From positions 62,001-126,000 of the forward strand of contig NZ_BLIV01000006.1 of assembly GCF_009811755.1 (NCBI RefSeq): a stretch of DNA of 64,000 nucleotides, written 5' to 3'. The notes under the pieces are model-generated. The model searched no databases and was not told the origin of the DNA. It was given only the letters and a program-made list of their open reading frames with translations. This DNA comes from Roseobacter cerasinus (GTDB lineage: Bacteria; Pseudomonadota; Alphaproteobacteria; Rhodobacterales; Rhodobacteraceae). Within the stretch, counting starts at the first letter, position 1. Every line of letters starts with the position of its first letter. This document shows positions 11,344 to 31,018 of this stretch, one piece after another. The translations under genes were made by a program, and so were the position numbers.

Positions 11344-13518
11344 ATGGACCGGGTCCAGATCGTACATGACAATTTCCTGCGCCGCGTGGCCAACGGTGAT
11401 TTTCCTGCCGGTACGCCGCCTGTGGGGTCGCTGGAGCCGACAACGGCCTTGACGCTCTACCGCGCGCAGGTCGCCAGCCGCGCACTCGACATCCAGAGCC
11501 GGGCGATGCAAAGCGCGGGGCAGGGGTTTTATACGATTGGCTCCTCAGGCCACGAAGGAATGGCTGCCGTGGCGCAGGCGCTGCGCATCGATGATATTGC
11601 TTTCCTGCACTACCGCGATGCGGCCTTCCAACTGGCGCGTGCGGCGCAGGCCGGACAAACGGGCATGATCCGGGATATGCTGCTCAGCTTTGCCTGTTCG
11701 TCGAAAGACCCGACAAGCGGCGGGCGCCACAAGGTGCTGGGCAGCAGGCCTTTGATGATCCCTCCGCAGACGTCGACGATTGCCAGCCACCTGCCCAAGG
11801 CGTTGGGCGCGGCCTACAGCCTCGGCTTGGCGCGCCGCCACGCGCCGGAGCATCGCGTTTTGCCCGAAGACGGCCTTGCCATGGTCAGCTTTGGCGACGC
11901 CTCGGTCAATCACTCCACCGCGCAAGGCACCATCAATGCGGCGGGGTGGGCCAGCGCGCAGAGCGGGCCGCTGCCGCTGCTGATGGTCTGCGAAGACAAT
12001 GGCATCGGCATCTCCACCAAGACACCCAAAGGATGGATCAAAGCCTCGCTGCAGCATCGCCCCGGGTTGCGGTATTTCGAGGCCAACGGGTTGGATATGT
12101 TCGAAACCTATGCGGTGGCCTTCGCGGCGGCGGATTTTGTGCGTCGCCAACGCAAGCCGGCGGTGCTGCATCTGAAGATGGTGCGGCTTTACGGTCATGC
12201 GGGCGCGGATGTGGCCACCAGTTACCTGCCCCGAGCCGAAGTCGAGGCTGAGGAGGCCAATGATACGCTGCTGCATTCCGCGCGTCTGCTGACAGAAGCG
12301 GGGGCCGCGTCCGCCGCGGATCTTCTGCACATCTATGAACAGACCTTGGAGGAGGTTGCGGCGGAAGCCATGCAGGTCGTCAAGGAGCCGCACTTGAAGA
12401 CGGCGCAAGATGTCATGTCCAGCCTGATCCCGCCCGCCCGGGTTTGCGCGCCCAGCAACGTGCCGGACCCCGCCGCGCGCGCAGATGTTTTTGGCAAGGA
12501 CCTGGCGCAGATGGACAGCCCCCAGCCCATGTCCCGCCTGATCAACTGGGCGCTGCATGATCTGATGCTGGCTCACCCCGAGACCTTGATCATGGGCGAA
12601 GACGTGGGTCGCAAGGGCGGTGTCTACGGCGTGACCCAAAAGCTGGAAGCGCGGTTTGGCCGAGACCGTGTGATCGACACGCTTTTGGATGAGCAATCCA
12701 TCTTGGGTCTGGCCATCGGCACGGCGCACAACGGCTTTCTGCCGATGCCTGAGATCCAGTTCCTCGCGTATCTGCACAACGCCGAAGACCAACTGCGCGG
12801 CGAGGCGGCGACGCTGCCGTTCTTCAGTTGCGGTCAGTGGACGAACCCGATGGTGCTGCGCATTGCGGGGCTGGGCTACCAGAAGGGCTTCGGTGGGCAT
12901 TTCCACAACGACAACTCGCTGGCCGTGCTGCGCGACATTCCGGGCCTCGTGATCGCCTGCCCCTCCACCGGTGCTGATGCGGCCCGCATGCTGCGCGAAT
13001 GCCACCGCCTGGCGCGGGAAGAGCAGCGGGTCTGTGTCTTTGTCGAGCCGATTGCCCTTTATCCCATGCGCGACCTCGCAGCACCGGGTGACGAAGGTTG
13101 GATGACGCGCTACCCCGAGCCTGACCAGCGCGCAGCGCTTGGTCAGGTCGGGGTGCACGGGGATGGCACGGATGTGGCCATCGTGACCTATGGCAATGGG
13201 CATTACCTGTCGCGACAGGCGCAGCAGTTGTTGGCGGAGGACGGTATTGCGGTGCGCGTGATTGACCTGCGCTGGCTGGCGCCGCTGCCGGAGGCCGCCC
13301 TGCTCGAAGCGGCGGGGCCTTGCGCTGAGCTGCTGATCGTCGACGAGTGCCGCCGGACCGGCGGGCAGGCCGAAGCGCTTATGGCACTCTTTGCAGAACA
13401 GGGCCGCCTTGCCGCGCGCTACGCGGCGGAGGACAGCTTCATCGCTACCGGGCCTGCCTATGCGGCCACGCTGCCCTCGCGCGACGGGATTGTCACGGCG
13501 GTCAAAGCGCTCTTATGA
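11344..13518 (+). CDS. Fused alpha-beta E1 of branched-chain 2-oxoacid dehydrogenase
   Basis: A 724-residue thiamine-diphosphate enzyme in which the alpha and beta E1 chains are one polypeptide. The alpha part (about 1-370) has HEGMAAVAQAL, YRDAAFQL and the cofactor motif running from GDASVN (about 184) to CEDN (about 217). The beta part starts near residue 396 (MSRLINWAL) and contains GEDVGRKGGVYGVT and EPIALYPM. It would decarboxylate the branched-chain keto acids and pass the acyl group to E2. No E2 or E3 gene lies beside it. ATG 11344 with TGAGGG before it is preferred over the upstream ATG at 11284. Its stop overlaps the end of the convergent broken gene. Confidence 0.88.
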   Translation: MDRVQIVHDNFLRRVANGDFPAGTPPVGSLEPTTALTLYRAQVASRALDIQSRAMQSAGQGFYTIGSSGHEGMAAVAQALRIDDIAFLHYRDAAFQLARAAQAGQTGMIRDMLLSFACSSKDPTSGGRHKVLGSRPLMIPPQTSTIASHLPKALGAAYSLGLARRHAPEHRVLPEDGLAMVSFGDASVNHSTAQGTINAAGWASAQSGPLPLLMVCEDNGIGISTKTPKGWIKASLQHRPGLRYFEANGLDMFETYAVAFAAADFVRRQRKPAVLHLKMVRLYGHAGADVATSYLPRAEVEAEEANDTLLHSARLLTEAGAASAADLLHIYEQTLEEVAAEAMQVVKEPHLKTAQDVMSSLIPPARVCAPSNVPDPAARADVFGKDLAQMDSPQPMSRLINWALHDLMLAHPETLIMGEDVGRKGGVYGVTQKLEARFGRDRVIDTLLDEQSILGLAIGTAHNGFLPMPEIQFLAYLHNAEDQLRGEAATLPFFSCGQWTNPMVLRIAGLGYQKGFGGHFHNDNSLAVLRDIPGLVIACPSTGADAARMLRECHRLAREEQRVCVFVEPIALYPMRDLAAPGDEGWMTRYPEPDQRAALGQVGVHGDGTDVAIVTYGNGHYLSRQAQQLLAEDGIAVRVIDLRWLAPLPEAALLEAAGPCAELLIVDECRRTGGQAEALMALFAEQGRLAARYAAEDSFIATGPAYAATLPSRDGIVTAVKALL

Positions 13519-14486
13519 CAGCGCGTTGGACCGGGCGATCAGATCCACACCCATCTGCTGCATGAGATCCATGTAGTCGAGCAGCACCCAGTTCTCGGCA
13601 ATCTTGCCGTTCGCGCAGCGGTAGAAATCCATCACTCGCAGGGTCAGCGCTCGGCCTGTGGGTGCAACACCCAGATAGGGGCCTTGATGGGTCATGGTCA
13701 TGGAGGGCCAGCCCGAGACAGCGGCGTAGTTGCCATCGCCGATCCGGCAGTAGTGGTTCCCGCCTTTGCGGTCTGGGAAGGCGGCCAGAAACGGGGCCCG
13801 GTGATCCTTTACGAACCCCTCCCACCGGTAGTTCGACCCGATCCCGCAGGGCCCGTACCACATCATGTCATCTGCCCAGTAGCCATTGGTGCCCGTTTGT
13901 CCCTTTGACCCACCCGTGGCGGGGTCATAGATGTGCAGATCCGCCAGCATCGCCTCCACCAGATCCAGGCTCGCCACACCGTCGCCGGTTTTCGGCAGCA
14001 CGCCGTCGTGGGTTGCAGGGCCGGGAAAAAGCCCTTCCAGCCCAAGCTGACCACCAAACGGGTCGCGCCCGGCCGCCGCATCAGATCCGGCAGATCGAGG
14101 ATGATTCGCGCCTGGGTTATGCGCCCATCCTCGACGCGGTAGAACTCCCCCGCGCGCAAAAACGCTAGCCGATGCGAGGGTTCGATGCCAAAAAAAGCGG
14201 CATCAAAAGTGCCAACGTAGTGCGCCACCGCAGCAATCCACTGCCCGCCCCCGGCGCGCCGGTTCATCCCGGTGATGAATATTTCGTCTCTCCGATAGAC
14301 ATGTCGCAGAGCCGCGCGCAGAGGTGTGTAAAACCCGTCTATGATGACCTCACACCCCTGCAGACGGCCCAATGGGTGCGAGATTTCAAAGACGCACTCC
14401 GGGTGCAGAAGCTGGCGAAATGTGGCGTCACCCGCAGCAAGCCCTGTGTTTAACAAATCGTGAATCTTGTGCTGAAGATCGGGCAT
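13513..14486 (-). pseudogene. Two-domain NTF2/SnoaL-like protein broken by a one-base frameshift
   Basis: Two overlapping minus-strand frames together make one protein of about 324 residues similar to the intact gene at 21362-22408. The first frame (14486 downwards) encodes the N-terminal domain through DLPDLM and GWKGFFP, then turns to nonsense (ALQPTTACC). The second frame resumes with GPATHDGVLP and runs through MWYGPCGIGS, GDGNYAAVSGWP, GVAPTGR and ENWVLLDYMD, all echoed in the 21362 paralog. The shift falls in an A5 tract at 14026-14030 (T5 in the coding sense), where one extra base would restore the frame. It is either a recent mutation or a homopolymer sequencing error. It diverges from the ABC importer operon. 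Confidence 0.8.
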
Positions 14487-14516
14487 CGGTTGGCATCCTG
14501 GATGAGCGGTTTAATA

Positions 14517-14534
14517 TTTGCACACGTGTGCAAA
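14517..14534. promoter_or_regulatory. Perfect 18-bp palindrome, probable LacI-family operator
   Basis: TTTGCACACGTGTGCAAA is a perfect inverted repeat centred on CG, the usual symmetry of LacI-family operators. It lies between the minus-strand SnoaL-like gene (starting at 14486) and the importer ATPase gene (starting at 14613), so it could control both. The best candidate regulator is the LacI-family protein encoded at 23166-24182 in the same cluster. Confidence 0.65.
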
Positions 14535-14612
14535 AAATCCTTGCCAAGTGCCGCGCCCGATGTCTAGCGTCAATACAACCTGGGAAAACAGGTCTGCGAC
14601 AGCGGGGGACTT

Positions 14613-15692
14613 ATGGCCGAAATTCAACTTCGGAACGTCAATAAACGGTGGGGCAGCTTTGTCGGTGTCGACAATTTCGACCTCACCATTGCCGATCAGG
14701 AATTCCTCGTGCTGCTGGGGCCGTCGGGCTGTGGCAAGACCACCACGATGCGCATGATCGCCGGGCTGGAGGACGCCACGGACGGTGACATCATCATTGA
14801 CGGGCGCGTGGTCAACGATCTCGACCCAAAAGACCGCGACGTGGCCATGGTGTTCCAGTCATACGGCCTCTATCCGAACATGAACGTCTATGAGAATATC
14901 CGCTTCCCGCTGAAGGTGCGCAAAGTGCCCGAGGCCGAACACGACGAACGCGTGCGCCGCGCCTCAGCGATGGTGGAGTTGGACGATTTCCTGCACCGCA
15001 AACCGGCGGAGCTGTCGGGCGGTCAGCGCCAGCGCGTGGCGCTTGCCCGTGCGATTGTACGCGAGCCGAATGTCTTTCTCATGGACGAGCCGCTCTCGAA
15101 CCTTGATGCCAAGCTGCGCGTCTCGACCCGCGCGCAAATCAAGAACCTCAGCCACGAGCTGAAGGTCACCACCGTCTACGTAACCCACGACCAGATCGAA
15201 GCGATGACGCTGGCCGACCGCGTCGTGGTCATGAAACAGGGCAAGGTGCAGCAGGTGGGTACGCCGACCGACATCTATGATCATCCGGCGAACACTTTTG
15301 TGGCCAGTTTCATCGGCAGCCCCGCGATGAACCTGATGGATGGCACGCTGCAGGGCGGCACGTTCTCTGGCGATAATGTGTCGATCTCGGGACTGAGCGC
15401 CCCGGATGGTCCTGTCACGTTGGGGTTCCGCGCGGAGGATGCGACCCTCGCCGAAGGGGCCAGCGGCCAGATCACGGCACCGATCTACACCATCGAGCTT
15501 CTGGGCGACGCGACCATGCTGACCGTGCGCGCGGGCGGGCAGCTTGTCTCGGTCAAGGCGCACAAGGAATACCGCGCCGAGATTGGCGATATGGTCTCTT
15601 TCTCAGTGCCCGTGGGCATCTGCCACCTCTTTCACAAGGACAGCGGTATGCGTCTTGAGACAGGCGCCGATCAACACGCCGAGATCGCGTGA
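14613..15692 (+). CDS. ABC importer ATPase, MalK/UgpC type
   Basis: A 359-residue ATP-binding subunit of a carbohydrate-class ABC importer. It shows Walker A GPSGCGKTT (36-44), the signature LSGGQRQR (about 134-141), Walker B VFLMDEP and the downstream switch histidine in YVTHDQIEAM. The C-terminal third (from about 240) is the OB-fold regulatory domain typical of MalK, UgpC and ThuK. It is first in the importer operon, ahead of the binding protein and two permeases, and lies behind the palindrome at 14517. The transported substrate is not readable from an ATPase. Confidence 0.93.
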   Translation: MAEIQLRNVNKRWGSFVGVDNFDLTIADQEFLVLLGPSGCGKTTTMRMIAGLEDATDGDIIIDGRVVNDLDPKDRDVAMVFQSYGLYPNMNVYENIRFPLKVRKVPEAEHDERVRRASAMVELDDFLHRKPAELSGGQRQRVALARAIVREPNVFLMDEPLSNLDAKLRVSTRAQIKNLSHELKVTTVYVTHDQIEAMTLADRVVVMKQGKVQQVGTPTDIYDHPANTFVASFIGSPAMNLMDGTLQGGTFSGDNVSISGLSAPDGPVTLGFRAEDATLAEGASGQITAPIYTIELLGDATMLTVRAGGQLVSVKAHKEYRAEIGDMVSFSVPVGICHLFHKDSGMRLETGADQHAEIA

Positions 15693-15777: not shown

Positions 15778-16995
15778 ATGTTTTTGAAGAGAATTGCTTT
15801 GGCGGGGGCCGTCTCGCTCATGGGAAGCGCGGCACTGGCCTGTTCCTACCAGAACGAGGTTCCGATCAAGTCGCTGAGCGCCGGATTTGAGGCGTGGAAA
15901 GCCGTGACGGACGCGATGGCCGAATGCGGGAACTTCCAGGCGGAGCTGGATCAGGAGTTTCGCAAAAAGCAGCCCGCCGCCTTTGAGGCCAACCCCTCGC
16001 TCTACCACATCGGCGGGGTGGCCAATGGCACCATCACGCCGCTGCTGAATGCGGGCACCATCCGCCCGCTGGATGATCTGGTCGAGAAATACGGCCAGAC
16101 CCTCAAACCCAATCAGCTCATTCGCATCAATGGTCAGATCATGGCGGTCGCGATGATGGTGAACACGCAGCACCTGATGTACCGCTCCGACGTTCTGGCG
16201 GATCTGGGCATTGCAACCCCCACCACCTGGGATGAGGTCTACGCCGCAGCGGCCAAGATCAAAGAGGCTGGCGTGATGGAGTATCCGCTGGGTGCGACGA
16301 TGAAGTCGGGCTGGAACATCGCGCAGGAATTCGTGAACATGTACCCGGCCCATGGCGGTGCGTTTTTCAATGCGGATAACACAACGGCGGTGAACTCGGA
16401 TGCGGGGATGGCCGCACTTGAAACTATGAAGGCAGCGCTCGAATTCACCGACCCGGAGGTGCTGGTCAGCGATTCAACCTACGTTCAGCAGCAATTCCAG
16501 CAGGGCAAGATCGCGATGGCGAACCTCTGGGCCAGCCGCGCGGGCGCCATGGATGATGAGGCCGAAAGCCAGGTTGTGGGCAAGGTGGCCATGGCGGCAG
16601 CGCCAAAGGCTGTGGCCGATGGTGCACCGGCAACAACGCTCTGGTGGGATGGGATTGTGATTGCGAAAAACATCTCTGACGAGGAGGCTGAGGCGGCCTT
16701 CCGTCTGGCGATGGAAGGGCTTGATGCTGAGACCGTGCAGGGCGCCAATGACGCCGCGATCTGGCTAGTGGATGGCTACCAACCGACGGAGATTGCCCAA
16801 GGCGCAATCGCGACGGCAACCGCGAACCCGGCGCCGCCTGCGTACCCCTCGACCACTCAGATGGGGCTGCTGCACAGCGCGCTTGGCAACGAACTGCCGT
16901 CTTTCCTGACTGGAGAGCGCGACGCTGCAGCGACGTTGGCCGCGATTGAAGAGGCCTATACAACCTCCGCCAAGGAAGCGGGCGTTCTGAAGTAA
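15778..16995 (+). CDS. ABC importer substrate-binding protein, family 1
   Basis: A 405-residue periplasmic binding protein of the maltose/glycerol-phosphate class. A signal peptide covers residues 1-21, with probable cutting after AALA, leaving a mature start at CSYQ; the cysteine position is not a standard lipobox. The two-lobe solute-binding fold is seen in IRINGQIMAVAMMVNTQ, PTTWDEVYAAAAKI and FQQGKIAMANLW. Start ATG 15778 follows CAGGGAG. It lies 85 bases after the ATPase gene and is followed by a strong hairpin at 17003. Neighbouring enzymes hint at a polyol, sugar acid or similar ligand, which is inference only. Confidence 0.9.
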   Translation: MFLKRIALAGAVSLMGSAALACSYQNEVPIKSLSAGFEAWKAVTDAMAECGNFQAELDQEFRKKQPAAFEANPSLYHIGGVANGTITPLLNAGTIRPLDDLVEKYGQTLKPNQLIRINGQIMAVAMMVNTQHLMYRSDVLADLGIATPTTWDEVYAAAAKIKEAGVMEYPLGATMKSGWNIAQEFVNMYPAHGGAFFNADNTTAVNSDAGMAALETMKAALEFTDPEVLVSDSTYVQQQFQQGKIAMANLWASRAGAMDDEAESQVVGKVAMAAAPKAVADGAPATTLWWDGIVIAKNISDEEAEAAFRLAMEGLDAETVQGANDAAIWLVDGYQPTEIAQGAIATATANPAPPAYPSTTQMGLLHSALGNELPSFLTGERDAAATLAAIEEAYTTSAKEAGVLK

Positions 16996-17002
16996 CACTG
17001 GC

Positions 17003-17026: not shown

Positions 17027-17050
17027 CTGCTTGCCCGGCTGGTGAGACAA

Positions 17051-17121: not shown

Positions 17122-18147
17122 ATGAAGTTCAAGACATTTGCAGCCTTTGTCGGCCCGTCGGTCTTCATGATGCTGCTCTTCATCGCGGCACCGCTTGTCA
17201 GTGTTTTCATTCAGAGTTTTCAGGTCACGCAACCGATCCTTGAACAGATCGAGGTGGAGACTTGCACCCCTGGTTTCCTAACCCAGACCTGCACCACGGA
17301 AATCAAGACCGTGCCCGCACTGGATGAGAACGGCAAGACCATCACCGAGACGCGCTGGGTGGGTTTGCAAAGCTATCAGAACGTTTTGCAAATGGATAAA
17401 TTCTGGTCGGCCATCGGCAATGGCAGCTGGAATCAGATCATGCAGATCGATTTCTGGAAAGCGCTGCGCTTCACCCTGACCTTCACGCTTTTGACGCTGC
17501 CTCTGGTCATCGGGGTCGGGCTCGCCATTGCGCTTGCGGTGAACAACGCTACGCGCAGCATCCGCGGTCCAGTTATCTTCGTGTCGCTGCTGCCGTTCAT
17601 CATTACCCCGGTTATCGGCTCACTGTCGATCTACTGGCTCTTTGTGGGTGACGGCATCCTGACCGTCATGCTGGAGAGGTGGTCAGGGCAAAATATCTCC
17701 ATGTTTGCGCAGTCCTGGACGATCGAAATTCTGATGTATTTCTACCAGGTCTGGCATGTGGCCCCCTTCGCCTTCGTGATCTTCTACGCCGGGCTGCAGA
17801 CCGTGAACATGGATACGCTGGAATCCGCAGTGATCGATGGCGCCAGCCGTTGGGAACGGCTGCGCCATGTGATCGTGCCGCATCTGATGCCGCTGATCAT
17901 TTTTATTTCGCTCATCCACCTGATGGACACCTATCGCGCCTTCGAGGTCATCGTTGGCTTCCGCAGTCAGGCGCATGTGATCTCGCTGCAGTGGCTGACC
18001 TATGACTTCATGACGCCGGATGACGCAGGCAACCGGGCGATGTCCCGCGCCTCGGCCAGCGCCATGCTGACCATGATTGGGATCGTATTCCTGCTGATCC
18101 TGCCGCTGCGCCGCACCTGGCGCGACCACAAAGGGAGCGCGCACTGA
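17122..18147 (+). CDS. ABC importer permease, MalF type
   Basis: A 341-residue inner-membrane subunit. The first helix (about 10-33) is followed by a periplasmic stretch of some 75 residues with four cysteines close together (two in ETCTPG-type turns), then five further helices. The cytoplasmic EAA loop that docks on the ATPase is SAVIDGASRWERLRHVIVPH at about 234-253. It pairs with the following permease, whose start overlaps its stop by one base. The position after the hairpin and inverted repeats suggests separate control of its expression level. Confidence 0.92.
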   Translation: MKFKTFAAFVGPSVFMMLLFIAAPLVSVFIQSFQVTQPILEQIEVETCTPGFLTQTCTTEIKTVPALDENGKTITETRWVGLQSYQNVLQMDKFWSAIGNGSWNQIMQIDFWKALRFTLTFTLLTLPLVIGVGLAIALAVNNATRSIRGPVIFVSLLPFIITPVIGSLSIYWLFVGDGILTVMLERWSGQNISMFAQSWTIEILMYFYQVWHVAPFAFVIFYAGLQTVNMDTLESAVIDGASRWERLRHVIVPHLMPLIIFISLIHLMDTYRAFEVIVGFRSQAHVISLQWLTYDFMTPDDAGNRAMSRASASAMLTMIGIVFLLILPLRRTWRDHKGSAH

Positions 18148-19304
18148 TGTCGACCCCCAAGGCCATGCAGCAGTCCTTTGCACTGCGTTTCTCTTCCGGC
18201 GCCTTCCTCGCGATCTGGTGTCTGCTCGCTGCCTTCCCGATCTTCTGGATCACGGTGATGAGCTTCAAATCGCCCGTAGATGCTTTTGCCGACAGCCCTC
18301 TGGATGTGATTTTCGGCCCGGTCACCCGCGCGAGCGGCGATGGGCTTTCGGTCGTCGACATCGTACTTGGGCTGGTGGTGCTGTTTTTTGCGATCCGCTG
18401 GGCCTTCACGCGGTTGCCAGCGCTTGTGCGACAGTACTGCCCGCCGGGGTTGATCGTGTTGGGCTGGCTGGTCGGCGCTTTGGTCTATGCCATCGCTTTC
18501 GTGCTCGTGTTCTTCGGCCTGCTGCCGCTTATCCTCGGCCTGCTGAATGGCCTGTTGGGCCCGCTTGGCACGCCGGTGCTGGGGCTTACCACAGATCACT
18601 ATGTTGCGGTCTGGGCGGAGAATGAGTTTTACCGCAACTTCCTCAACTCCATGCTGGTGACAGCGGGCGTTGTGACCATCTCGCTCACGGTGGGTACGCT
18701 GGCGGGCTATGGTCTCGCGCGCTCAGGCTCTGACCTGGCGTTCTGGTTGCTGATTTTTGCGCTGGTGTTCCGGGCGCTGCCGCACTCCGTCCTGGTGGCG
18801 GGCTATCTGCCGGTGTTCATCAATTCAAGTGAGATCCTGCGCCCGATCTTTGGCGAAGGCGCGCCCACGCTCTATGGCCAGCCTTGGGCGGTGATCGCGG
18901 TGCTGGTGTCGATCAACCAACCCTTCACCATCTGGATGCTGCGCAGCTTCTTCCAGAACATCCCCGCCGAGCTGGACGAGGCCGCCCGAGTGGATGGCTG
19001 CAGCCACTTCCAGGCGTTCCGCCGGGTGATCATGCCGGTGATGTGGCCCGGAGTGATAACCACAGGGCTGTTCTCCTTCCTACTGGGCTATAACGACTTC
19101 CTCGTGACCTCGCTGCTGCTCGATGCGCAAAACCAGACGATGGTTCCGGCCATTGCGGGCTATTTCAATCGTGAGACAACAACCACCGATCAGGTGGAGG
19201 CGGTCGCGGCGGCGGTCTCGATCACAGCACCCTTGTTCCTGCTGGTCATGATCTTCCAACGCCAGATCGTCAGCGGCCTGACAGCGGGGGCGGTGAAGGG
19301 CTGA
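18147..19304 (+). CDS. ABC importer permease, MalG type, with a membrane insertion
   Basis: A 385-residue permease, about 100 longer than the usual 280. The first helix (20-40) and the start of the loop that normally leads into the permease core (to about residue 58) are ordinary. Then residues 59-146 form an insert with hydrophobic stretches at about 70-88 and 102-138, after which the normal sequence resumes at TTDHYVAVWAENEFYRNFLNS. The EAA loop is LDEAARVDGCSHFQAFRRV. The insert would add two or three membrane spans. Its partner, the MalF-type gene, overlaps by one base. Function as the second channel half is secure; the insert's purpose is unknown. Confidence 0.9.
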   Translation: MSTPKAMQQSFALRFSSGAFLAIWCLLAAFPIFWITVMSFKSPVDAFADSPLDVIFGPVTRASGDGLSVVDIVLGLVVLFFAIRWAFTRLPALVRQYCPPGLIVLGWLVGALVYAIAFVLVFFGLLPLILGLLNGLLGPLGTPVLGLTTDHYVAVWAENEFYRNFLNSMLVTAGVVTISLTVGTLAGYGLARSGSDLAFWLLIFALVFRALPHSVLVAGYLPVFINSSEILRPIFGEGAPTLYGQPWAVIAVLVSINQPFTIWMLRSFFQNIPAELDEAARVDGCSHFQAFRRVIMPVMWPGVITTGLFSFLLGYNDFLVTSLLLDAQNQTMVPAIAGYFNRETTTTDQVEAVAAAVSITAPLFLLVMIFQRQIVSGLTAGAVKG

Positions 19305-22408: not shown

Positions 22409-23166
22409 CACCTCTGCCCCGGACGCCGAGCTTTGATTTGACGGGCAAGCGGGCGCTGGTGACCGGCGCCTCCTCGGGCATTGGGCTTGGCTGTGCCGTG
22501 GCCCTGGCGGAGGCGGGCGCGCATGTGGTTTGTGCGGCGCGCCGGGCCGAGGTGCTGCAAGAGGCGGTCGGCGCGATGGCTGCGCAAGGCTGGTCGGCCG
22601 AAGCGATGCCACTTGATCAGAGCGATGTGGCCGCGATGAGCGCCGCCTTTGAAGCCCCGTTCGACATCGTGGTGAATTCGGCTGGGCTTGCGCGGCATGC
22701 GCCCGCCATCGAGACGACGCCCGAGGACTACGACGCGGTGATGAACCTCAATCTGCGCGGCGCGTATTTTCTCTCGGCTCGGGCCGCCAAGGCGTTGATT
22801 GCGGACGGAAAGCCGGGCTCGATCATCCATATCTCCAGCCAGATGGGTCATGTGGGGGGCGTTGACCGGGCCGTCTATTGTGCCTCGAAACACGGGCTCG
22901 AAGGCATGGTCAAGGCGATGGCCATTGAATGGGGCAAGGCGGGTATTCGCATCAACACCATCTGCCCCACCTTCATTCGCACACCGCTCTCCGCGGTCAC
23001 CTTCGACAATCCCGAGCGGCTCGCCTGGATCATGGAAAAGATCAAGCTGCCGCGCGTGGGCGAGGTGGAGGATATCATGGGCGCGGTGCTTTTTCTGGCC
23101 TCCGACGCCTCGGCCATGGTCACCGGCACCTCGATGCTGATCGACGGCGGCTGGACCGCAGGCTGA
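22405..23166 (+). CDS. Short-chain dehydrogenase/reductase
   Basis: A 253-residue classical SDR using NAD(P). It has TGASSGIG near residue 20, NSAGLA for the adenine pocket, the active-site serine in HISSQMG, and YCASK with the catalytic tyrosine and lysine. The ending SMLIDGGWTAG is usual for the family. It starts at GTG 22405 inside the stop of the SnoaL-like gene (GTGA), and its own stop overlaps the LacI gene by one base. It most likely oxidises or reduces a hydroxyl or keto group in the cluster's pathway, alongside the HisD-like enzyme; the 3-oxoacyl reductase label such proteins often get is not supported by context. Confidence 0.88.
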   Translation: MTPLPRTPSFDLTGKRALVTGASSGIGLGCAVALAEAGAHVVCAARRAEVLQEAVGAMAAQGWSAEAMPLDQSDVAAMSAAFEAPFDIVVNSAGLARHAPAIETTPEDYDAVMNLNLRGAYFLSARAAKALIADGKPGSIIHISSQMGHVGGVDRAVYCASKHGLEGMVKAMAIEWGKAGIRINTICPTFIRTPLSAVTFDNPERLAWIMEKIKLPRVGEVEDIMGAVLFLASDASAMVTGTSMLIDGGWTAG

Positions 23167-24182: not shown

Positions 24183-25147
24183 AAGGCTTCGACCCGAAGT
24201 TCCGCGATTTCCCCGATTACATCATCGGGATCACCAGAGAGATCTGGGAGGATCGTGGCATCGCGACCCTGCACCAGTATTACTCTGACGATATCGTTGT
24301 GCGCACACCGGCTTCGGTGACGCTTGGCAATGCCAATGTGATCGGAGCAACCATGGCGACCTTGGCGGAGTTTCCCGATCGCACGCTTTTTGGCGAGGAT
24401 GTGATCTGGTCTGGGACGCCGGAAGAGGGGATGCTCTCCTCGCACCGTATCCTGAGCACGGCGACGCATGCGCATGACGGGGTCTATGGAACGGCGACAG
24501 GCAAGACACTGACCTACCGGATTCTTGCGGACTGTCATGCCATCAACAACCAGATCAACGATGAATGGCTGATCCGGGATCAGGGCGCCATTGTATGCCA
24601 GTTGGGGTGGGAGCCGAAGGCCTATGCCGCCGATCTCATCGCGCGCGAAGGGGGGCCGGAGGCTTGTGTGCAGCCGCTGACCCCTGCCAATGACCAGCCC
24701 GGGACTTACAAAGGTAGCGGCAATGACAACGCGTGGGGGGCGAAATACGCGGATATCCTGACCCGCATCATGGGGGCGGATATGGCGGCGATCCCGGCGG
24801 ACTACGACCGCGCCTGTCACGTCGAGTACCCCGGCGGGCACACCGGCCACAGCCACGGCGATGTGGACCAGTTCTGGATGGGGCTGCGCGCATCCTTTCC
24901 CGATGCCACCTTCCAGATCGACCATCAGATCGGGCGCGATGATCCGATGATGCCGCCGAGGGCTGCCTTGCGCTGGTCGCTGCATGGGCGGCATTCCGGC
25001 TGGGGCCGTTTTGGCGCGCCCACCGGGGCCGAGGTCTATTTACTGGGCATTTGTCATGCGGAGTTCGGCCCCTGGGGTCTGCGCCGCGAATATGTCATCT
25101 TTGACGAAACCGCGATCTGGAAACAGATCCTGCTGCAGACGGGCTGA
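24179..25147 (+). CDS. Two-domain NTF2/SnoaL-like (ester-cyclase-like) protein
   Basis: A 322-residue protein with two NTF2-like halves. The first (about 10-150) contains IWEDRGIATLHQYYSDDIVV and GYWx-less ends in WLIRDQGAIVCQLG; the second (about 175-320) holds the histidine-rich HTGHSHGDVDQFW, then WSLHGRHSGWGRFGAPTGAEV and FDETAIWKQIL. This is the ester-cyclase/SnoaL branch and is more distant from the 21362 protein than that is from the broken gene at 13513. The HxGHSHGD run could bind metal, which is a guess from composition. Translation is coupled to the LacI gene through ATGA. Confidence 0.78.
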   Translation: MKGFDPKFRDFPDYIIGITREIWEDRGIATLHQYYSDDIVVRTPASVTLGNANVIGATMATLAEFPDRTLFGEDVIWSGTPEEGMLSSHRILSTATHAHDGVYGTATGKTLTYRILADCHAINNQINDEWLIRDQGAIVCQLGWEPKAYAADLIAREGGPEACVQPLTPANDQPGTYKGSGNDNAWGAKYADILTRIMGADMAAIPADYDRACHVEYPGGHTGHSHGDVDQFWMGLRASFPDATFQIDHQIGRDDPMMPPRAALRWSLHGRHSGWGRFGAPTGAEVYLLGICHAEFGPWGLRREYVIFDETAIWKQILLQTG

Positions 25148-25208: not shown

Positions 25209-26177
25209 ATGGTAACATCTGCTGAGATGGAAGCGCGGATTGTCCGCTATGGCGATCTGAGGCCCTGCAAGACCGCTTTCATCGATGCCCACACTCCGGG
25301 CAGCGATCAGAAGGAGAACTTTACGATCATTGGTGGTGGGGTGTCTGAAAGCCCTGATCAGCACGTGCATATCTCTATTCCGCATGGCTTCAACATCGGT
25401 GCCGCAGGTCAGCCGCCCAAGTGTCGTAACTCCTTGCACAGCCATCGCACAGCGGAGGTTTTCTTTGTGCTCAAGGGGCGCTGGCGCTTCTTCTGGGGGC
25501 GCTGGGGCGATGCAGGTGAGGTGGTGCTGGAGGAGGGCGACATTTTCAACATCCCCACCGGTACTTTCCGGGGATTCGAGAATATCGGCAATGACTATGG
25601 GATGATCATGGCGATCCTCGGCGGGGACGACGCGGGCGGTGGCGTGATCTGGGCGCCGCAGGTGATCGAGGACGCGGCGGATCACGGGCTGGTGCTCTCG
25701 GAGGAGGGCAAGCTCTATGACAGCAAGCAAGGCCAGACACTGCCCGAGGGCGTGAAGCCCATGCCACTGTTGACCGATAACGAGTTGAAAACCTACCCTG
25801 AGCCCACCACTGCGGATGTGATCCCCGGCTATGTGGCACGCTATTGGGATATGGTCGCGCTGGCGGATCGCACCCCCGCCAAGGTCATCGGCCCGGACGC
25901 CATGCTGCGCGACAGGCCGGGGTTCGAGGTGTCATTGATCACGCGCGGCTCTGCCAGTGATGCGATGCATAGCCACGACAACCCTTCGGTGCTAATGCCC
26001 GTGACTGGCCACTGGAAGGTCACATGGGGGGGTGGCAGCGCCACGCTGGCGCCGGGCGACACGATGTCGGTTCCTGAACATCTGGCCCACAGCACCGTAC
26101 CCTCGATGACCGGTGAGGCCGCGCTTTATCACATCGTCGGGACAGGTGATCCCGCAGGCCCCACATGGCAGGGATAA
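25209..26177 (+). CDS. Bicupin protein
   Basis: A 322-residue protein with two cupin barrels. The first (about 60-140) has the metal-type histidines in LHSHRTAEVFFVLKGRW and the closing GDIFNIPTGTFRGFEN. The second (about 225-315) has MHSHDNPSVLMPVTGHW and GDTMSVPEHLAHS. Two complete motif sets suggest two metal sites, as in bicupin dioxygenases and decarboxylases, but the fold alone does not separate an enzyme from a sugar isomerase or a sensor. It overlaps the methyltransferase gene by 13 bases and belongs to the 24179-28606 gene run. Confidence 0.82.
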   Translation: MVTSAEMEARIVRYGDLRPCKTAFIDAHTPGSDQKENFTIIGGGVSESPDQHVHISIPHGFNIGAAGQPPKCRNSLHSHRTAEVFFVLKGRWRFFWGRWGDAGEVVLEEGDIFNIPTGTFRGFENIGNDYGMIMAILGGDDAGGGVIWAPQVIEDAADHGLVLSEEGKLYDSKQGQTLPEGVKPMPLLTDNELKTYPEPTTADVIPGYVARYWDMVALADRTPAKVIGPDAMLRDRPGFEVSLITRGSASDAMHSHDNPSVLMPVTGHWKVTWGGGSATLAPGDTMSVPEHLAHSTVPSMTGEAALYHIVGTGDPAGPTWQG

Positions 26178-26776
26178 CTGCCGATCCCGACAACACCCGC
26201 GATGCCTATGAGAGCCAGGCGGCACTCTATGATGCGCAACGGTCCCGGGCGCTTTTCGAGGCGCGCTGGCTTGCGCGCTTTGCCGCCTGCCTGCCCACGG
26301 GCGGGCGGGTGCTGGACCTGGGGTGCGGTACAGGAGAGCCGATTGCGCGCTGGTTCATCGCAGAAGGCTATCGCGTCACTGGTGTGGATTTCGCCGAGGC
26401 GATGTTGGACATCGCCCGCAGCCGCTGGCCTGACGGCGACTGGCGGCAAGGTGACATGCGCAGTTTTGATCTGGGCGAGACCTTCGACGGGATCATCGCC
26501 TGGAACAGCTTTTTCCACCTCACGCCCGACGAACAGCGCGCATGTATCGCGCGCATGGCCGCTCATCTTGAACCGGGCGCCTCGTTGCTGATGACCGTGG
26601 GGCCCGATGCCGGGGAGGCATCTGGCACCGTCGGGGATCGCGCCGTCTATCACGCTTCGCTTTCGCCCGCGCAATATGCCACATGTTTGGAGCAAAACGG
26701 CTTGCGTCTCACCGGCTATCTCGCCGAAGACCCGGAGACCAACCAACACAGCGTGCTCATGGCGCGCAAGATCTGA
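26165..26776 (+). CDS. Class I SAM-dependent methyltransferase
   Basis: A 203-residue Rossmann methyltransferase. Motif I is VLDLGCGTGEP (about 49-59), the acidic residue after strand 2 is in VTGVDFAEAMLDIA, and motif IV lies near FDGIIAWNSFFHL. It overlaps the bicupin gene and ends ten bases before the MetE-like gene. In this setting it either methylates a pathway intermediate or, together with the MetE-like protein, takes part in moving a methyl group. The acceptor cannot be read from the sequence. Confidence 0.85.
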   Translation: MAGITADPDNTRDAYESQAALYDAQRSRALFEARWLARFAACLPTGGRVLDLGCGTGEPIARWFIAEGYRVTGVDFAEAMLDIARSRWPDGDWRQGDMRSFDLGETFDGIIAWNSFFHLTPDEQRACIARMAAHLEPGASLLMTVGPDAGEASGTVGDRAVYHASLSPAQYATCLEQNGLRLTGYLAEDPETNQHSVLMARKI

Positions 26777-26786
26777 GGAGACCACC

Positions 26787-27914
26787 ATGCCCATCCTGAC
26801 GACCCACGCGGGCTCGCTGCCTCGCACGCAGAAGGTGGTGGATTTCATCTTTGCTCGTGAACATGGCGCGCCTTATGACGCCTCGGAATTCGATGCAGCA
26901 ATGACCGAGGCCGTATCGGCCACCGTTGCCAAACAGGTCGCCGCAGGTGTGGGCGTGGTCAGCGACGGTGAGACCTCCAAGATTTCCTACGCCACTTACG
27001 TCAAGGACCGCTATACCGGATTTTCCGGGGACAGCCCGCGCAATGCGCCCGCTGATCTGAAGAAATTCCCGACCTTCCTCAAGCGCCTCGCGGATGACGG
27101 TGGCACGCCCAAATACGCGCGTCCCATGTGTACCGGCGAGGTCAAATCCAAAGGGCAGGGCGAGCTGCATAAGGACATTGCCAACCTGCAGGCCGCCATG
27201 GCTGGGCATGGCGCCGCGCGGGGGTTTATGAACGCCGCCTCGCCGGGGGTGATCTCGCTCTTTCTGCAGAACGACTTCTATCCGACCCGCGACGCCTATC
27301 TCGCGGCCCTCGCCGATGCCATGCGCGAGGAATATCGCACCATTGTCGACGCGGGCCTCGATCTGCAACTTGATTGCCCCGACCTCGCATTGTCGCGCCA
27401 TATGCTCTTCAACGACCTCTCCGATGAGGAATTCCTCAAAGTCGCAGGCGCCCATGTGGAGGCACTGAATCACGCGCTTGATGGCATTCCGCAGGAGAAA
27501 GTGCGCGTGCACATCTGCTGGGGCAACTACGAGGGGCCGCATGTTTGCGACATCGGGATGGAGAAGGTCTTTGACACGCTGATGTCGGTGAACGCAAGCT
27601 ATCTGCTTTTCGAGACCTCGAACCCCCGCCACGCCCATGAATGGGTCGTCTTCCGCGACCGCAAGGCCGACATACCTGACGACAAGGTGCTGGTGCCCGG
27701 CGTGGTGGATACGACGACGAATTTTGTTGAGCACCCCGAACTGGTGGCTCAACGGCTTGACAGATTTACACAAATTGTGGGCCATGACCGCGTCGTGGCG
27801 GGATCAGATTGTGGGTTTGGAACATTTGCCGGGTTTGGTGCGATTGACCCGGATATCGCCTATGCCAAGCTCGAAGCCCTGCGCGACGGGGCGAAACTTG
27901 CGGGCGCGGGGTGA
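26787..27914 (+). CDS. MetE-like (cobalamin-independent) zinc methyltransferase or lyase
   Basis: A 375-residue protein equal to the C-terminal catalytic half of methionine synthase MetE, without its N-terminal half. It starts TTHAGSLPRT. The zinc ligands are present: H242 and C244 in VHICWGNYEG, E276 in FETSNPRH, and C342 in GSDCGFGTF. The same half-length family includes UROD-like proteins and epoxyalkane:coenzyme M transferase, so a thiol or methyl transfer is likely but the pair of substrates is open. GAGGAGA before ATG 26787 sets the start. Its stop overlaps the start of the RraA-like gene, tying it to this catabolic run rather than to methionine synthesis. Confidence 0.8.
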   Translation: MPILTTHAGSLPRTQKVVDFIFAREHGAPYDASEFDAAMTEAVSATVAKQVAAGVGVVSDGETSKISYATYVKDRYTGFSGDSPRNAPADLKKFPTFLKRLADDGGTPKYARPMCTGEVKSKGQGELHKDIANLQAAMAGHGAARGFMNAASPGVISLFLQNDFYPTRDAYLAALADAMREEYRTIVDAGLDLQLDCPDLALSRHMLFNDLSDEEFLKVAGAHVEALNHALDGIPQEKVRVHICWGNYEGPHVCDIGMEKVFDTLMSVNASYLLFETSNPRHAHEWVVFRDRKADIPDDKVLVPGVVDTTTNFVEHPELVAQRLDRFTQIVGHDRVVAGSDCGFGTFAGFGAIDPDIAYAKLEALRDGAKLAGAG

Positions 27915-28606
27915 TGGACGACGCCCTTCTTGCGCTGCTGAAAACGGTCGACACGCCCACCGTCTGCAACGCCATCGAGGTGGCGCAGGGCCAGCGCGGC
28001 TTTGACGATTTCACTCGCGGCACGATGCTCTGCTCGGCACCGGGCGAGGCCATGGTGGGCTATGCGCGCACCGCCTGCATCCGCGCTGTGACGCCCTCGG
28101 AAGAGCCGCCCGAGGTGATCAAGGCGCGCCGCATGGCCTATTATGAGTACATGGCCGAGGGGCCACGCCCCGGCATCGCCGTGGTGCAGGACATGGACGG
28201 GTCGGAGGCCATCGGCGCCTATTGGGGTGAGGTGAACACGAATATCCACAAGGCCTTTGGCCTGTCGGGCGCGCTGACCAATGGTGTGATGCGTGACCTC
28301 GGTGATCTGCCCGAGGGCTTCCCGGTTGTCGCGGGCTCTATCGGTCCGAGCCATGGGTTTGTGCATGTGCTGGATTTCGATGTGAAAGTGGAGATTTTCG
28401 GCATGCAGGTTGCGCCCGGCGCGCTGGTCCATGCGGACCGTCACGGCGCGGTTGTGGTCCCTGAGGATGTAGTGCCACTGCTCGGCGACGCCATCTCGAC
28501 GCTCATCCGCTCGGAAAAAATCATTTTTGACGCGGTGAAGGGCAAGACGCTGGGGTTTGACGAGTTTGAAGCCGTCTGGGCTGCGTTTGAGGCGGCGCGG
28601 ACATAG
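27914..28606 (+). CDS. RraA-family protein (aldolase-like)
   Basis: A 230-residue protein of the RraA/HMG-aldolase fold. The family signature is GAYWGEVNTNIHKAFGLSG, then LTNGVMRDL with the arginine-aspartate pair used for substrate and metal, and PGALVHADRHGAVVVPEDV near the end. Members split 4-hydroxy-4-methyl-2-oxoglutarate or decarboxylate oxaloacetate; others bind RNase E. Next to dehydrogenases and an enolase-type protein, an aldolase or decarboxylase role near the end of a catabolic route is the sensible guess. ATG 27914 shares a base with the previous stop; GTG 27911 is an alternative. Confidence 0.82.
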   Translation: MDDALLALLKTVDTPTVCNAIEVAQGQRGFDDFTRGTMLCSAPGEAMVGYARTACIRAVTPSEEPPEVIKARRMAYYEYMAEGPRPGIAVVQDMDGSEAIGAYWGEVNTNIHKAFGLSGALTNGVMRDLGDLPEGFPVVAGSIGPSHGFVHVLDFDVKVEIFGMQVAPGALVHADRHGAVVVPEDVVPLLGDAISTLIRSEKIIFDAVKGKTLGFDEFEAVWAAFEAART

Positions 28607-28642: not shown

Positions 28643-29875
28643 CTAGTCTTTGGGGACCGGCGCGCCCCCTTCGAACGCATTCCCTTGCGCGTAGTTGCAG
28701 GGCGCCTCTTGCATGTCCAGATGTAACCCATCGCCTGCATAGGGGTGCGCGCGGGCGAGGTCTTCGTCCACCTCGATGCCAAGGCCGGGGGTGTCTGGAG
28801 GCGTGATGAAGCCTTCCTCGACCCGTATGCTGGAGCGGATCAACGCATCGTGGAACGACGTTTCGATGGTTTCGGCCATGAGCAGGTTGGGGATGCAGGC
28901 GGCGAGCTGAATGTTGGCGGCCCATTCGATGGGACCTGCATAGAGGTGCGGGGCTATCTGGGCGTTGTAAGCCTCTGCCATGGCGGCGATTTTTCGGCAC
29001 TCCCAGATCCCGCCTGCGCGGCCGAGAGCGGGTTGCAGGATTGTGGCCGCTCCAGTGCGCAACACCGGTGCGAATTCTGCTCGCGTCGTCAGACGCTCGC
29101 CCGTGGCCACGGGGATGCGCACGGCGCGAGCCACTTTGGCCATCTCTTCCACAGCGTCGGGCGGGATGGGCTCTTCGAACCAGAGCGGGTCGTAAGGCTC
29201 CAGTGCGCGGCCAAGACGGATCGCGCCTGCTGTGCTGAACTGCCCATGGGTGCCAAAGAGCAAGTCGGCGCGGTTGCCCACCGCCTCGCGGATCGCCTTG
29301 CAGAAGGCCACGGACTGCGCGATGTCGCGCATCCCCGGCATATGCCCGCCGCGCATCGTGTAGGGGCCTGCCGGGTCGAACTTGACGGCCGTGTACCCTC
29401 TTGAAACGCAATCCTCTGCGGCCTCCGCTGCCATGACGGGCGAGGTCCAGAAGGTTGCAATGTCGTGGTGCGGCAGCGGGTAGAGGTAGGTATAGGCGCG
29501 GATGCGGTCATTCATCTTGCCGCCCAGCAGCGCCCAGATCGGGCGCTCGCGTGCTTTCCCCAGGATGTCCCAGCAGGCGATTTCGAGGCCGGAAAACGCG
29601 CCCATGACCGTGAGATCGGGGCGTTGGGTGAAGCCGGAGGAATAGGCCCGGCGGAACATCTTTTCGATGTTTTCTGGGTTTTCGCTCTGCATATGGCGAT
29701 CGAAGACATCTGCGATCACCGCCTGCATGGCGCCTGGCCCGACCGAGGCGGCGTAGCATTCGCCCCAGCCGGTGATGCCGTCATCCGTTGTGAGCTTCAC
29801 GAGGATCCAGTAACGCCCGCCCCAGCCGGGCGCGGGCGGGGCGGTGACGATGATGTCCAGATCCTTCAGTTTCAT
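28643..29875 (-). CDS. Enolase-superfamily (mandelate racemase-like) protein with altered metal site
   Basis: A 410-residue two-domain protein: a capping domain (about 1-125) and a TIM barrel with a C-terminal cap. Lysine K165 (AVKFD), E234/E235 (WFEEP), E260 (TGER) and H310 (APHLYAGP) match the superfamily. But where the first metal-binding aspartate is expected the sequence reads FGTHGQ with G208, and where the dyad aspartate is expected it reads QPALG with A283. In galactonate-dehydratase relatives these are Asp. A dehydratase of sugar acids is the usual role; with these changes the chemistry may differ. It is on the opposite strand, convergent with the RraA-like gene. Confidence 0.82.
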   Translation of the reverse strand: MKLKDLDIIVTAPPAPGWGGRYWILVKLTTDDGITGWGECYAASVGPGAMQAVIADVFDRHMQSENPENIEKMFRRAYSSGFTQRPDLTVMGAFSGLEIACWDILGKARERPIWALLGGKMNDRIRAYTYLYPLPHHDIATFWTSPVMAAEAAEDCVSRGYTAVKFDPAGPYTMRGGHMPGMRDIAQSVAFCKAIREAVGNRADLLFGTHGQFSTAGAIRLGRALEPYDPLWFEEPIPPDAVEEMAKVARAVRIPVATGERLTTRAEFAPVLRTGAATILQPALGRAGGIWECRKIAAMAEAYNAQIAPHLYAGPIEWAANIQLAACIPNLLMAETIETSFHDALIRSSIRVEEGFITPPDTPGLGIEVDEDLARAHPYAGDGLHLDMQEAPCNYAQGNAFEGGAPVPKD

Positions 29876-29917: not shown

Positions 29918-31018
29918 TCAGTTGCCTTCGTTGTGGAAGACAATCACGTTGCGCCGGGCAGACCCGGATTTGGTATCCGCAATGGCCTCATTGATCTGGT
30001 CCAATCGCCAGCGACCCGAGATCAGCTCGTCGAGTTTGAGGCGGCCTTGCGCGTAGAGATCGACCATCCAGGGGATGTCGCGCTGGATCACCACATCGCC
30101 CATTTTGGAGCCGACCATGCCCTGACCGACGGCAGCAAAGATCACCGGCTCGTAGGATGAGGTGGCTCCGGAATGTGGCATGCCGACCATGACCACCTTG
30201 CCGCCATAGCCCAGATAGCGCGGCGCCTGATCATAGGCGGGAATGGCGCCCACGGTCACGATAACCGCATCTGCGCCGCGCCCGCCGAGCGCTTTGTAGC
30301 TGGCTTTCCATGGTTTGGGATCGGTGGCCAGGATGCCGTGGGTTGCGCCGAAGTCCTTGGCGATCTCCAGCTTCTCTGCGCTCATGTCCACCGCGACGAT
30401 GCGACGTGCACCTGCGATCCGCGCGCCTTGAATGGCGTTCAGGCCCACACCGCCTGCGCCGATCACAACAACGTCTTGCCCGGCGCGCAGACCGGCGGCG
30501 TTGACCACCGCACCGACGCCTGTGATCACGCCGCAGGCGATCAGGCTGGCGGCGTCCTTGGGGATGTCCGCGTCGATGCGCACCACCTGACTTTGCGCTA
30601 CCACCACTTTCTCAGCAAAGGCGCCGCAGGCCATGGCTTGATGCAGAGTACCGCCGTCTGCGGTGGTGATGGGACCGGCGTCTCCATCATAGGGGGTTTC
30701 GCACAGCGTGGGATGGCCGCCTGCGCAATTCCCGCAGGTGCCGCAGGCGCGGATCAAGGTCACAACCACGCTGTCCCCCACGGCCAGCCCGGTGATGCCG
30801 GGCCCCAGCGCCGTCACCACTCCAGCGGCTTCATGGCCGTAGACCGCAGGCAGCGTTCCGCCCCAGGCGCCCTCCGCAAAGGAGATATCCGAATGGCAAA
30901 TCGCCACCGCATCCAGGGTCACTTCGATCTCGCCCATCTGGGGGGCGCGCAGCCGGATGTCTTCGATTTGAAGGGGTGCGCCGAAGGCGCGGCACACGGC
31001 GGCTTTGATGGTTTGCAT
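29918..31018 (-). CDS. Zinc-dependent alcohol dehydrogenase (MDR)
   Basis: A 366-residue medium-chain dehydrogenase. The catalytic zinc ligands are C41 (ICHSD) and H62-E63 (GHEA), the structural zinc is held by C92, C95, C98 and C106, and the nucleotide fold has GAGGVGLNAIQ near 188. Length and the four-cysteine lobe put it with class III/NDMA-type alcohol dehydrogenases. It precedes the enolase-like gene by 42 bases on the same strand, so the two probably form a small operon at the right edge of the catabolic cluster. Substrate unknown; an aldehyde or alcohol intermediate of the pathway is likely. Confidence 0.9.
   Translation of the reverse strand: MQTIKAAVCRAFGAPLQIEDIRLRAPQMGEIEVTLDAVAICHSDISFAEGAWGGTLPAVYGHEAAGVVTALGPGITGLAVGDSVVVTLIRACGTCGNCAGGHPTLCETPYDGDAGPITTADGGTLHQAMACGAFAEKVVVAQSQVVRIDADIPKDAASLIACGVITGVGAVVNAAGLRAGQDVVVIGAGGVGLNAIQGARIAGARRIVAVDMSAEKLEIAKDFGATHGILATDPKPWKASYKALGGRGADAVIVTVGAIPAYDQAPRYLGYGGKVVMVGMPHSGATSSYEPVIFAAVGQGMVGSKMGDVVIQRDIPWMVDLYAQGRLKLDELISGRWRLDQINEAIADTKSGSARRNVIVFHNEGN

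Follow-up and report, generated by a model that had tools for sequence, protein, structure and literature searches.

Which process could require an ATP-binding cassette (ABC) importer, a HisD-family dehydrogenase, a LacI-family regulator and several SnoaL-fold proteins to be encoded side by side, as they are in a 64,000-nucleotide stretch of Roseobacter cerasinus DNA (contig NZ_BLIV01000006.1, positions 62,001 to 126,000; hereafter the window, numbered from its first base)? A preliminary description of this DNA proposed the import, oxidation and cleavage of one compound, and the coordinated gene set with its conserved linkage supports such a view. It is suggested here, with a probability of about 0.62, that the locus, under the control of LacI, serves to import one methylated, polyhydroxylated small molecule, to unmask and oxidise it and to split it by aldol cleavage; the figure applies to this general scheme, not to a substrate or an order of steps. 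What the sequence shows directly is an importer, a gene for a regulator, one conserved palindrome ahead of the operon and a set of enzymes that travel together, and the locus would be a LacI-type catabolic operon otherwise of a known kind.

Gene identities were obtained by frame calling followed by Pfam and NCBIfam scans, and these found all gene classes that had been named. The operon is compact and forms a single plus-strand run (14613-28606) from the importer through the RraA-like gene, with a broken divergent gene and a candidate operator ahead of it:

13513..14001, minus strand: C-terminal half of a broken tandem SnoaL gene, divergent and upstream (PF07366, 63 bits)
14061..14486, minus strand: N-terminal half of the broken tandem SnoaL gene (alignment to an intact Ruegeria homologue, other frame)
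14516..14535, no strand: LacI-type operator candidate between the divergent SnoaL gene and the importer (conserved palindrome)
14613..15692, plus strand: ABC importer ATPase, UgpC/MalK type (PF00005, PF17912; NF008653 with 449 bits, cut-off 432)
15778..16995, plus strand: solute-binding protein, SBP_bac_1 (Pfam; probable start at 15778, picked at MFLKRI)
17122..18147, plus strand: ABC permease 1 (PF00528)
18147..19304, plus strand: ABC permease 2 (PF00528)
19429..19959, plus strand: single-domain SnoaL protein, SnoaL3 (PF07366, 72 bits)
19972..21300, plus strand: HisD-family dehydrogenase of a non-HpsN class, motif GKFPM (PF00815, 445 bits)
21362..22408, plus strand: tandem SnoaL protein dsno4 (two PF07366 stretches)
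22405..23166, plus strand: short-chain dehydrogenase/reductase (SDR) (PF13561)
23166..24182, plus strand: LacI-family regulator (PF00356, PF13377)
24179..25147, plus strand: tandem SnoaL protein dsno5 (two PF07366 stretches)
25209..26177, plus strand: bicupin with HxHxxxE kept and Arg in place of the usual fourth-ligand His
26165..26776, plus strand: S-adenosylmethionine-dependent methyltransferase, optional (19 of 65 loci)
26787..27914, plus strand: MetE-like catalytic half with conserved zinc ligands
27911..28606, plus strand: RraA-like aldolase/decarboxylase (PF03737)

Overlaps of 1-4 bases had been reported, and such overlaps are present at five joints, namely permease 1/permease 2 (1 base, 18147), dsno4/SDR (4 bases, 22405-22408), SDR/LacI (1 base, 23166), LacI/dsno5 (4 bases, 24179-24182) and MetE/RraA (4 bases, 27911-27914); the cupin and methyltransferase genes overlap by 13 bases (26165-26177) and fall outside that range.

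The gene set is conserved. A dsno5 homologue was found in 91 of 198 genomes of the marine family (threshold E 0.001), in 19/19 members of the genus, and in 30 of 397 genomes sampled from the phylum (threshold E 1e-25), 7 of these 30 lying outside the family. The core was taken as 13 genes, with the methyltransferase, an enolase-superfamily protein, an alcohol dehydrogenase and a major facilitator superfamily (MFS) transporter outside it, and a core gene was counted at 35% identity or more. Among the 40 family loci fetched for gene content, 28 have at least 8 core genes, 7 have all 13 and 6 have 5 or fewer. As dsno5 with at least 8 core genes is common in the family, the operon probably consumes a compound that many marine bacteria meet. 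A second set of named loci comprises the best 80 of at least 589 relatives; these are the closest relatives, so that its figures describe close kin, and the 65 with full 10-kb flanks were counted. All 13 core genes are present in 46 of the 65 and at least 8 in 64. Both permeases are found in all 65, dsno4 in 64, hisD and lacI in 63 each, the ATPase, the binding protein and the bicupin in 61 each, the SDR in 60 (59 at 35% identity), SnoaL3 in 59, the MetE-like gene in 58 and the RraA gene in 56, while an alpha/beta hydrolase is present in 38 and an intact divergent SnoaL gene in 29. Scattering of the genes in relatives had been named as an outcome that would speak against one pathway; linkage is strongly conserved and no such scattering was seen in the relatives checked. 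In all locus counts related loci stand as separate rows, and merging three repeats hardly changes them. Loci with a distant dsno5 (L053, L054, L065, L190, L195) contain little of the operon. Copies labelled Nocardioides (L113), Flavobacteriia (L140) and Desulfosarcinaceae (L150) resemble alphaproteobacterial ones, with 76-81% dsno5 identity, and are likely to reflect misbinning or contamination; L140 duplicates L139.

The binding protein and permease 1 occur as two divergent types (about 38-46% versus at least 60% identity to the proteins of the window) that serve one enzyme set, and proteins at least 50% identical to those of the window are found in 37/65 and 41/65 loci, respectively. The transported compound may therefore differ between loci, and the two importer types hint at two transported variants.

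The switch that would control the operon is the palindrome TTTGCACACGTGTGCAAA at 14516-14535. It stands far above chance, and its 3' end lies 78 bases ahead of the ATPase start. In 68 of 89 loci the core TGCANNCGNNTGCA occurs in the 300 bases that precede the ATPase gene, as compared to 32 of 1780 random stretches from the same loci; with repeats merged the figures are 66 of 86 loci and 63 of 4300 control stretches. The exact pattern has one site in the whole R. cerasinus genome. Exactly one site (at most one mismatch), 9.6-10.7 kb from dsno5, is present in 18 of the 19 genus members, and the nineteenth, G598, in which dsno5 is only 64% identical, has zero sites at this stringency. The palindrome thus combines the features looked for in a LacI-controlled operon, i.e., an upstream position, a central CG and conservation in relatives, and we infer that the LacI-family protein binds here. 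Other palindromes had also been described as operator-like, but with about 3 palindromes of any kind per kb in the 25 kb examined (78 in total), these are background and carry no weight.

A comparable arrangement is found further away. In two Deinococcus plasmids this core, which is looser than the strict pattern, precedes cupin genes and in Pantoea and three genomes like it LacI/MFS genes; in Novosphingobium the core precedes three separate units (HisD-A; LacI/HisD-B; cupin/hydrolase) and in Ensifer NER9 the importer and cupin units. It was not found in 14 distant loci checked. Judged from these motifs a similar switch is seen in two phyla, Pseudomonadota and Deinococcota, though it is not universal.

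The HisD-family dehydrogenase of the operon, here called HisD-A, gives 428 bits to TIGR00069, and its nearest solved structures are HpsN enzymes (387 bits), which are dehydrogenases of 2,3-dihydroxypropane-1-sulfonate (DHPS). According to the available part of the published work, His126 of HpsN, in the motif G-R-Y-A/S-H, contacts the sulfonate and marks DHPS dehydrogenases, whereas HisD has the motif G-S-A-P-L (PMC11382572). The window protein has G-K-F-P-M, with Met at the position of His126. All 141 HisD-A/B hits have Pro followed by Met, Leu or Ile (KFPM in 113) and none has His; the Pro and hydrophobic residue at the substrate motif are a likeness to HisD, as far as the published part describes that family (PMC11382572). 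The zinc ligands and the catalytic Glu/His of the HisD fold, mapped on HpsN residues given in the same partly available source (PMC11382572), are kept in the window protein and in 139/141 hits, and the two hits in which these motifs were unread are second copies from Deinococcus. Apart from HisD-A, the genome encodes a HisD for biosynthesis and, separately, an HpsN-type copy with GRYSH (L218). In a midpoint-rooted tree of 31 rows HisD (support 100/100), the HpsN type (100/100) and HisD-A (97/95) form separate groups, so that the operon enzyme lies apart from the biosynthetic HisD of its own genome with 100/100 support; the HisD-B rows are not one group and carry long-branch warnings. Because of the motif, the separate genomic HisD and HpsN copies and the tree groups, HisD-A is, as judged by sequence, a further kind of HisD-family enzyme. 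As in DHPS loci, it is a HisD-fold dehydrogenase encoded next to an SDR, but it is flanked by SnoaL, cupin, MetE and RraA genes; in contrast to HisD its context looks catabolic. HisD-A is not confined to the operon, and copies about 80-88% identical lie with tripartite ATP-independent periplasmic (TRAP) transporters, SDR and aldolases. Such units in Sulfitobacter pontiacus (L091, 4078-11122) and Antarctobacter (L092, 4866-12643) comprise LacI, TAXI-TRAP, HisD-A, SDR and HpcH genes, with RraA in addition in L092, and may represent a simpler route for some related substrate.

Four SnoaL/NTF2-like proteins had been counted at the locus, but four separate, intact ones are not supported. The SnoaL domain scored above the gathering threshold in the Pfam scans. 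Two of the frames, both on the minus strand, proved to be one gene: an intact Ruegeria homologue is matched by the two halves in different frames (13513..14001 to its residues 150-335, the frame being open upstream to about 14073), which places a frameshift near 14061-14073. The set therefore comprises three tandem genes, of which one is broken and two are intact, and one gene for a single domain, and four independent SnoaL genes were rejected on the frame alignment and the genus relatives. In ten of these the divergent gene was found in one frame in three and interrupted in three, with no match in the 6 kb fetched in four, so that it looks dispensable. The dsno5 model (predicted local distance difference test, pLDDT, 91) has two similar domains, of which the N-terminal is SnoaL by Pfam while structural matches involve mainly the C-terminal one (182-320). 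The nearest chains are SnoaL-like cyclases, ketosteroid isomerase and limonene epoxide hydrolase; the fold is shared with these, but here the domains are in tandem and identity to the listed chains is 9-17%. Both halves of dsno5 contain conserved His, Asp and Glu residues, which suggests that these proteins are enzymes. An LdpA-type deformylase is a conceivable model for what the SnoaL proteins do.

The compound had earlier been proposed to be possibly demethylated or thiol-transferred. The zinc motif of the MetE-like protein is intact, which agrees with this, and the activity as such is a prediction. The HxC and CG motifs are present in 107/107 sequences, H242, C244, E276 and C342 are invariant in 23 rows, and the GS and GE motifs line up with those of MetE. 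The H-x-C, E, C and GS/GE motifs presumably bind zinc and homocysteine. The likeness to MetE is thus in the catalytic part, while the 375 residues align mainly to the C-terminal half; the N-terminal half with its folate domain is missing, and with all seven methionine synthase models that it matches the protein scores far below cut-off. Elsewhere, a SnoaL/NTF2 gene adjoins the MetE-like gene in Sphingobium RAC03, Novosphingobium US6-1 and Halobellus limi, and lies one gene further away in Pantoea At-9b, i.e., in 4/7 settings examined; none is annotated near it in Dietzia, Natronococcus and Halobaculum. The gene tables of the plasmids are incomplete. Both sphingomonads have aminomethyltransferase-type and methylene-tetrahydrofolate reductase genes no more than 9 kb away, a combination that we take to resemble folate-dependent O-demethylation loci. 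In the haloarchaeon Halobellus limi (L178, 744-7137) five genes annotated as ester cyclases form a row with a MetE-like gene of 41% identity; three of the ester cyclases were scanned and proved to be two tandem SnoaL proteins and a single one, and a phosphonate-type ABC importer adjoins.

The motif (D/E)-X20-R-D is the catalytic motif of RraA-like class II aldolases. The RraA-like protein (PF03737) has E-X20-RD, as do all of 88/88 full-length hits, always with E, and shares this with the RraA-fold class II aldolases, such as 4-hydroxy-4-methyl-2-oxoglutarate/4-carboxy-4-hydroxy-2-oxoadipate aldolase and LigK; it differs from LigK in scoring 27.7 bits against a model cut-off of 304.5. In 149 dsno5-type loci compared for gene co-occurrence, 88 have RraA, 13 have HpcH, none has both and 48 have neither (86, 13, 0 and 47 of 146 after merging repeats), and the two never being together suggests that they do the same job. 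In the same 149 loci an enolase without the alpha/beta hydrolase is seen in 22, the hydrolase alone in 85, both in none and neither in 42; as the named enolase loci are from Roseobacter, Sulfitobacter and Tateyamaria, replacement is here indistinguishable from lineage. An amidase and HisD-B occur together in 13 loci, singly in 2 and 1, respectively, and are both missing from 133. The bicupin keeps HxHxxxE and has Arg for the next His in 12/12 and 30/30 aligned rows; P-x4-R-G-F was present in 121/121 hits of a search that looked for R first. Its model has a mean pLDDT of 82 (below 50 for residues 18-53), and quercetinase and salicylate/gentisate dioxygenases rank first, with oxalate decarboxylases and vicilins scoring close behind. 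Identity to quercetin 2,3-dioxygenase and salicylate/gentisate 1,2-dioxygenase is 13-18%, and these differ from it at the fourth ligand. The SDR is nearest to KduD/gluconate 5-dehydrogenase models, below the cut-off.

Related clusters were found in plasmid records of Deinococcus, Pantoea, Priestia, Novosphingobium, Sinorhizobium, Roseibium, Alloyangia and Ensifer. What recurs in them is an importer of the ABC or MFS kind, tandem SnoaL, HisD-A, SDR and LacI genes, a cupin, an alpha/beta hydrolase and an aldolase of the RraA or HpcH kind, with gaps for HisD-A and SDR in Ensifer NER9 and for HisD-A in Priestia. The Ensifer NER9 cluster has a 3-oxo-tetronate kinase gene and a second aldolase gene. 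A Vibrio pelagius plasmid (L076, 7505-17143) has an importer and four tandem SnoaL genes next to sarcosine oxidase and purU; neither a HisD in 31 kb nor a cupin or aldolase nearby was found, and the locus possibly reflects partial use of the substrate.

From these parts the following sequence of events may be proposed. The importer would bring the compound in, and the compound or a product would release LacI from 14516-14535. SnoaL-fold proteins could unmask the compound by enolisation, hydration or ring chemistry, helped by the alpha/beta hydrolase where this is encoded and in some relatives by the amidase and a second HisD. The MetE-like zinc enzyme would move a methyl group from the substrate to a thiol, probably homocysteine. 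For HisD-A we infer oxidation of a CH2OH next to C-OH or C-N to the carboxylate, using 2 NAD+, and the SDR would oxidise or reduce a secondary alcohol or ketone. Cleavage of a 4-hydroxy-2-oxo acid into pyruvate and one other fragment could then be the task of the bicupin and, as the last enzyme, the RraA-like aldolase (HpcH in others). The palindrome, the extra HisD-like class and the tandem SnoaL proteins are handles by which the substrate may be found.

Several observations weigh against this proposal. The RraA/HpcH exclusion is partly a lineage effect, and the Antarctobacter HisD-A unit, which lacks dsno genes, holds both. The HisD-A units of Sulfitobacter pontiacus and Antarctobacter, with TRAP, SDR and aldolase, are without SnoaL, cupin and MetE, and HisD-A occurs in yet other settings in Rhizobium johnstonii, Pararhizobium and Ancylobacter. 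The MetE-like gene is absent from 49/149 dsno5-type loci, and the second type of binding protein and permease 1 is mostly 38-46% identical to that of the window. A full cupin metal site has His in motif 2, and the bicupin is without this usual fourth metal ligand. As for the operator, the strict pattern has matches in just 7/80 non-genus genomes and is missing in dsno5-carrying family members such as G007, G025 and G035; the core is not directly before the ATPase gene in 21/89 loci (at least 7 of these carry it before another gene), and it is lacking both in the clusters of Vibrio, Ensifer E-60, Sinorhizobium and Priestia and in the five HisD-A units that have no SnoaL gene, TRAP units included.

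No known pathway was found to equal the set, as the preliminary description had maintained: HisD-A lacks the HpsN signature, and the literature searches, on the gene set and on NTF2-like catabolic enzymes, gave no matching cluster among the matches listed, their coverage being partial and the absence therefore weak evidence. A pathway for DHPS or another sulfonate would explain why the best solved relatives of HisD-A are DHPS dehydrogenases, but the Met in place of the His that marks HpsN in the available part of the source (PMC11382572), the separate HpsN-type copy in the genome and the separate tree groups make it extremely improbable, and it was rejected on these grounds. Degradation of pantothenate, or of another N-acyl amino-alcohol or pantoate, by amidase, HisD oxidation and decarboxylation would account for the amidase and HisD-B pairs of some relatives, and conversion of a primary alcohol to a carboxylate is HisD chemistry; such an amidase was not seen in 134 of the 149 loci, however, and with SnoaL, cupin and MetE left unexplained this pathway is very unlikely. 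Much the same holds for a biosynthetic or detoxifying rather than catabolic cluster: the SnoaL fold is known from polyketide biosynthesis, but importer, LacI and aldolase are present while no synthase, ligase or exporter was found among the core genes scanned, and it seems highly improbable. More room must be given to a linear sugar acid or polyol, which HisD would turn into an aldaric or hydroxy acid and the SDR into a keto acid before the aldolase/decarboxylase finishes, the SnoaL, cupin and MetE-like proteins adapting conjugates or ethers of the core. The sugar-type importer and LacI, the SDR closest to KduD/gluconate 5-dehydrogenase models (if below cut-off), the small TRAP, HisD-A, SDR and aldolase units, and the kinase and second aldolase of Ensifer NER9, where HisD-A and SDR are unmatched, all point this way; several tandem SnoaL genes and a MetE-like enzyme in one operon are left unexplained, and such a substrate is possible if somewhat unlikely.

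The boldest specific form of the proposed scheme, which fits many of the parts, would be the catabolism of mycosporines or mycosporine-like amino acids (C7-cyclitols), an assignment that is tentative and rather unlikely. The mycosporine ring has a tertiary alcohol with a hydroxymethyl group, an O-methyl group and an amino acid on an enaminone. SnoaL proteins and hydrolases would free the cyclohexenone core of its amino acids, the MetE-like enzyme would pass the O-methyl group to homocysteine, and oxidation of the C(OH)-CH2OH of the ring by HisD-A would give a tertiary hydroxy acid. The cupin would open the enediolone ring to 4-carboxy-4-hydroxy-2-oxoadipate, which is a substrate of RraA-fold aldolases, and the RraA/HpcH aldolase would yield pyruvate and oxaloacetate. 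Each enzyme class fits chemically, as judged by reasoning from structures and reaction types, and dioxygenases rank first for the bicupin model, if closely followed by oxalate decarboxylases and vicilins. The amidase and HisD-B of some relatives would handle fungal glutaminol-type side chains, and their nearly constant pairing is as an amide and amino-alcohol side chain predicts. The available part of a review reports glutaminol mycosporines from fungi and terrestrial cyanobacteria and refers to an earlier suggestion that shinorine and porphyra-334 are hydrolysed by Vibrio harveyi (PMC3083659). Against mycosporines speak the lack of MetE in 11/15 amidase loci, the Arg at the fourth-ligand position of the cupin and the HisD-A units without ring-opening genes. 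A blunt literature search gave no characterised gene set for mycosporine catabolism among the matches listed. If it is true, this would be the first gene set for bacterial mineralisation of the ultraviolet sunscreens of algae, cyanobacteria and fungi, controlled in at least two phyla by a LacI regulon that uses a single type of operator, and the fate of the nitrogen and carbon of natural sunscreens would become testable.

Three genes lie behind the operon, of which the first two had been counted to the same unit:

28643..29875, minus strand: enolase-superfamily protein, neighbour, not core
29918..31018, minus strand: zinc alcohol dehydrogenase, neighbour, not core
31114..32331, minus strand: MFS transporter, neighbour, not core

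They are encoded on the opposite strand, the DNA near them gave no operator match below 3 mismatches, and they accompany only 18-20 of the 65 close loci (enolase 19, MFS 19, alcohol dehydrogenase 20, or 18 at 35% identity or more; the methyltransferase, within the run, also has 19), so that their membership in the core pathway is not supported. Just ahead of the operon, window positions 1920-13518 encode acyl-CoA dehydrogenase, carboxyl transferase, biotin carboxylase, HMGL-like and enoyl-CoA hydratase proteins and a fused 2-oxoacid dehydrogenase E1, and presumably represent a leucine/branched-chain degradation locus. Beyond the MFS gene, at 32335-34768 on the minus strand, a Lyase_1 family gene adjoins an alpha/beta hydrolase gene, a pair that we take to be reminiscent of pcaB/pcaD of protocatechuate breakdown.

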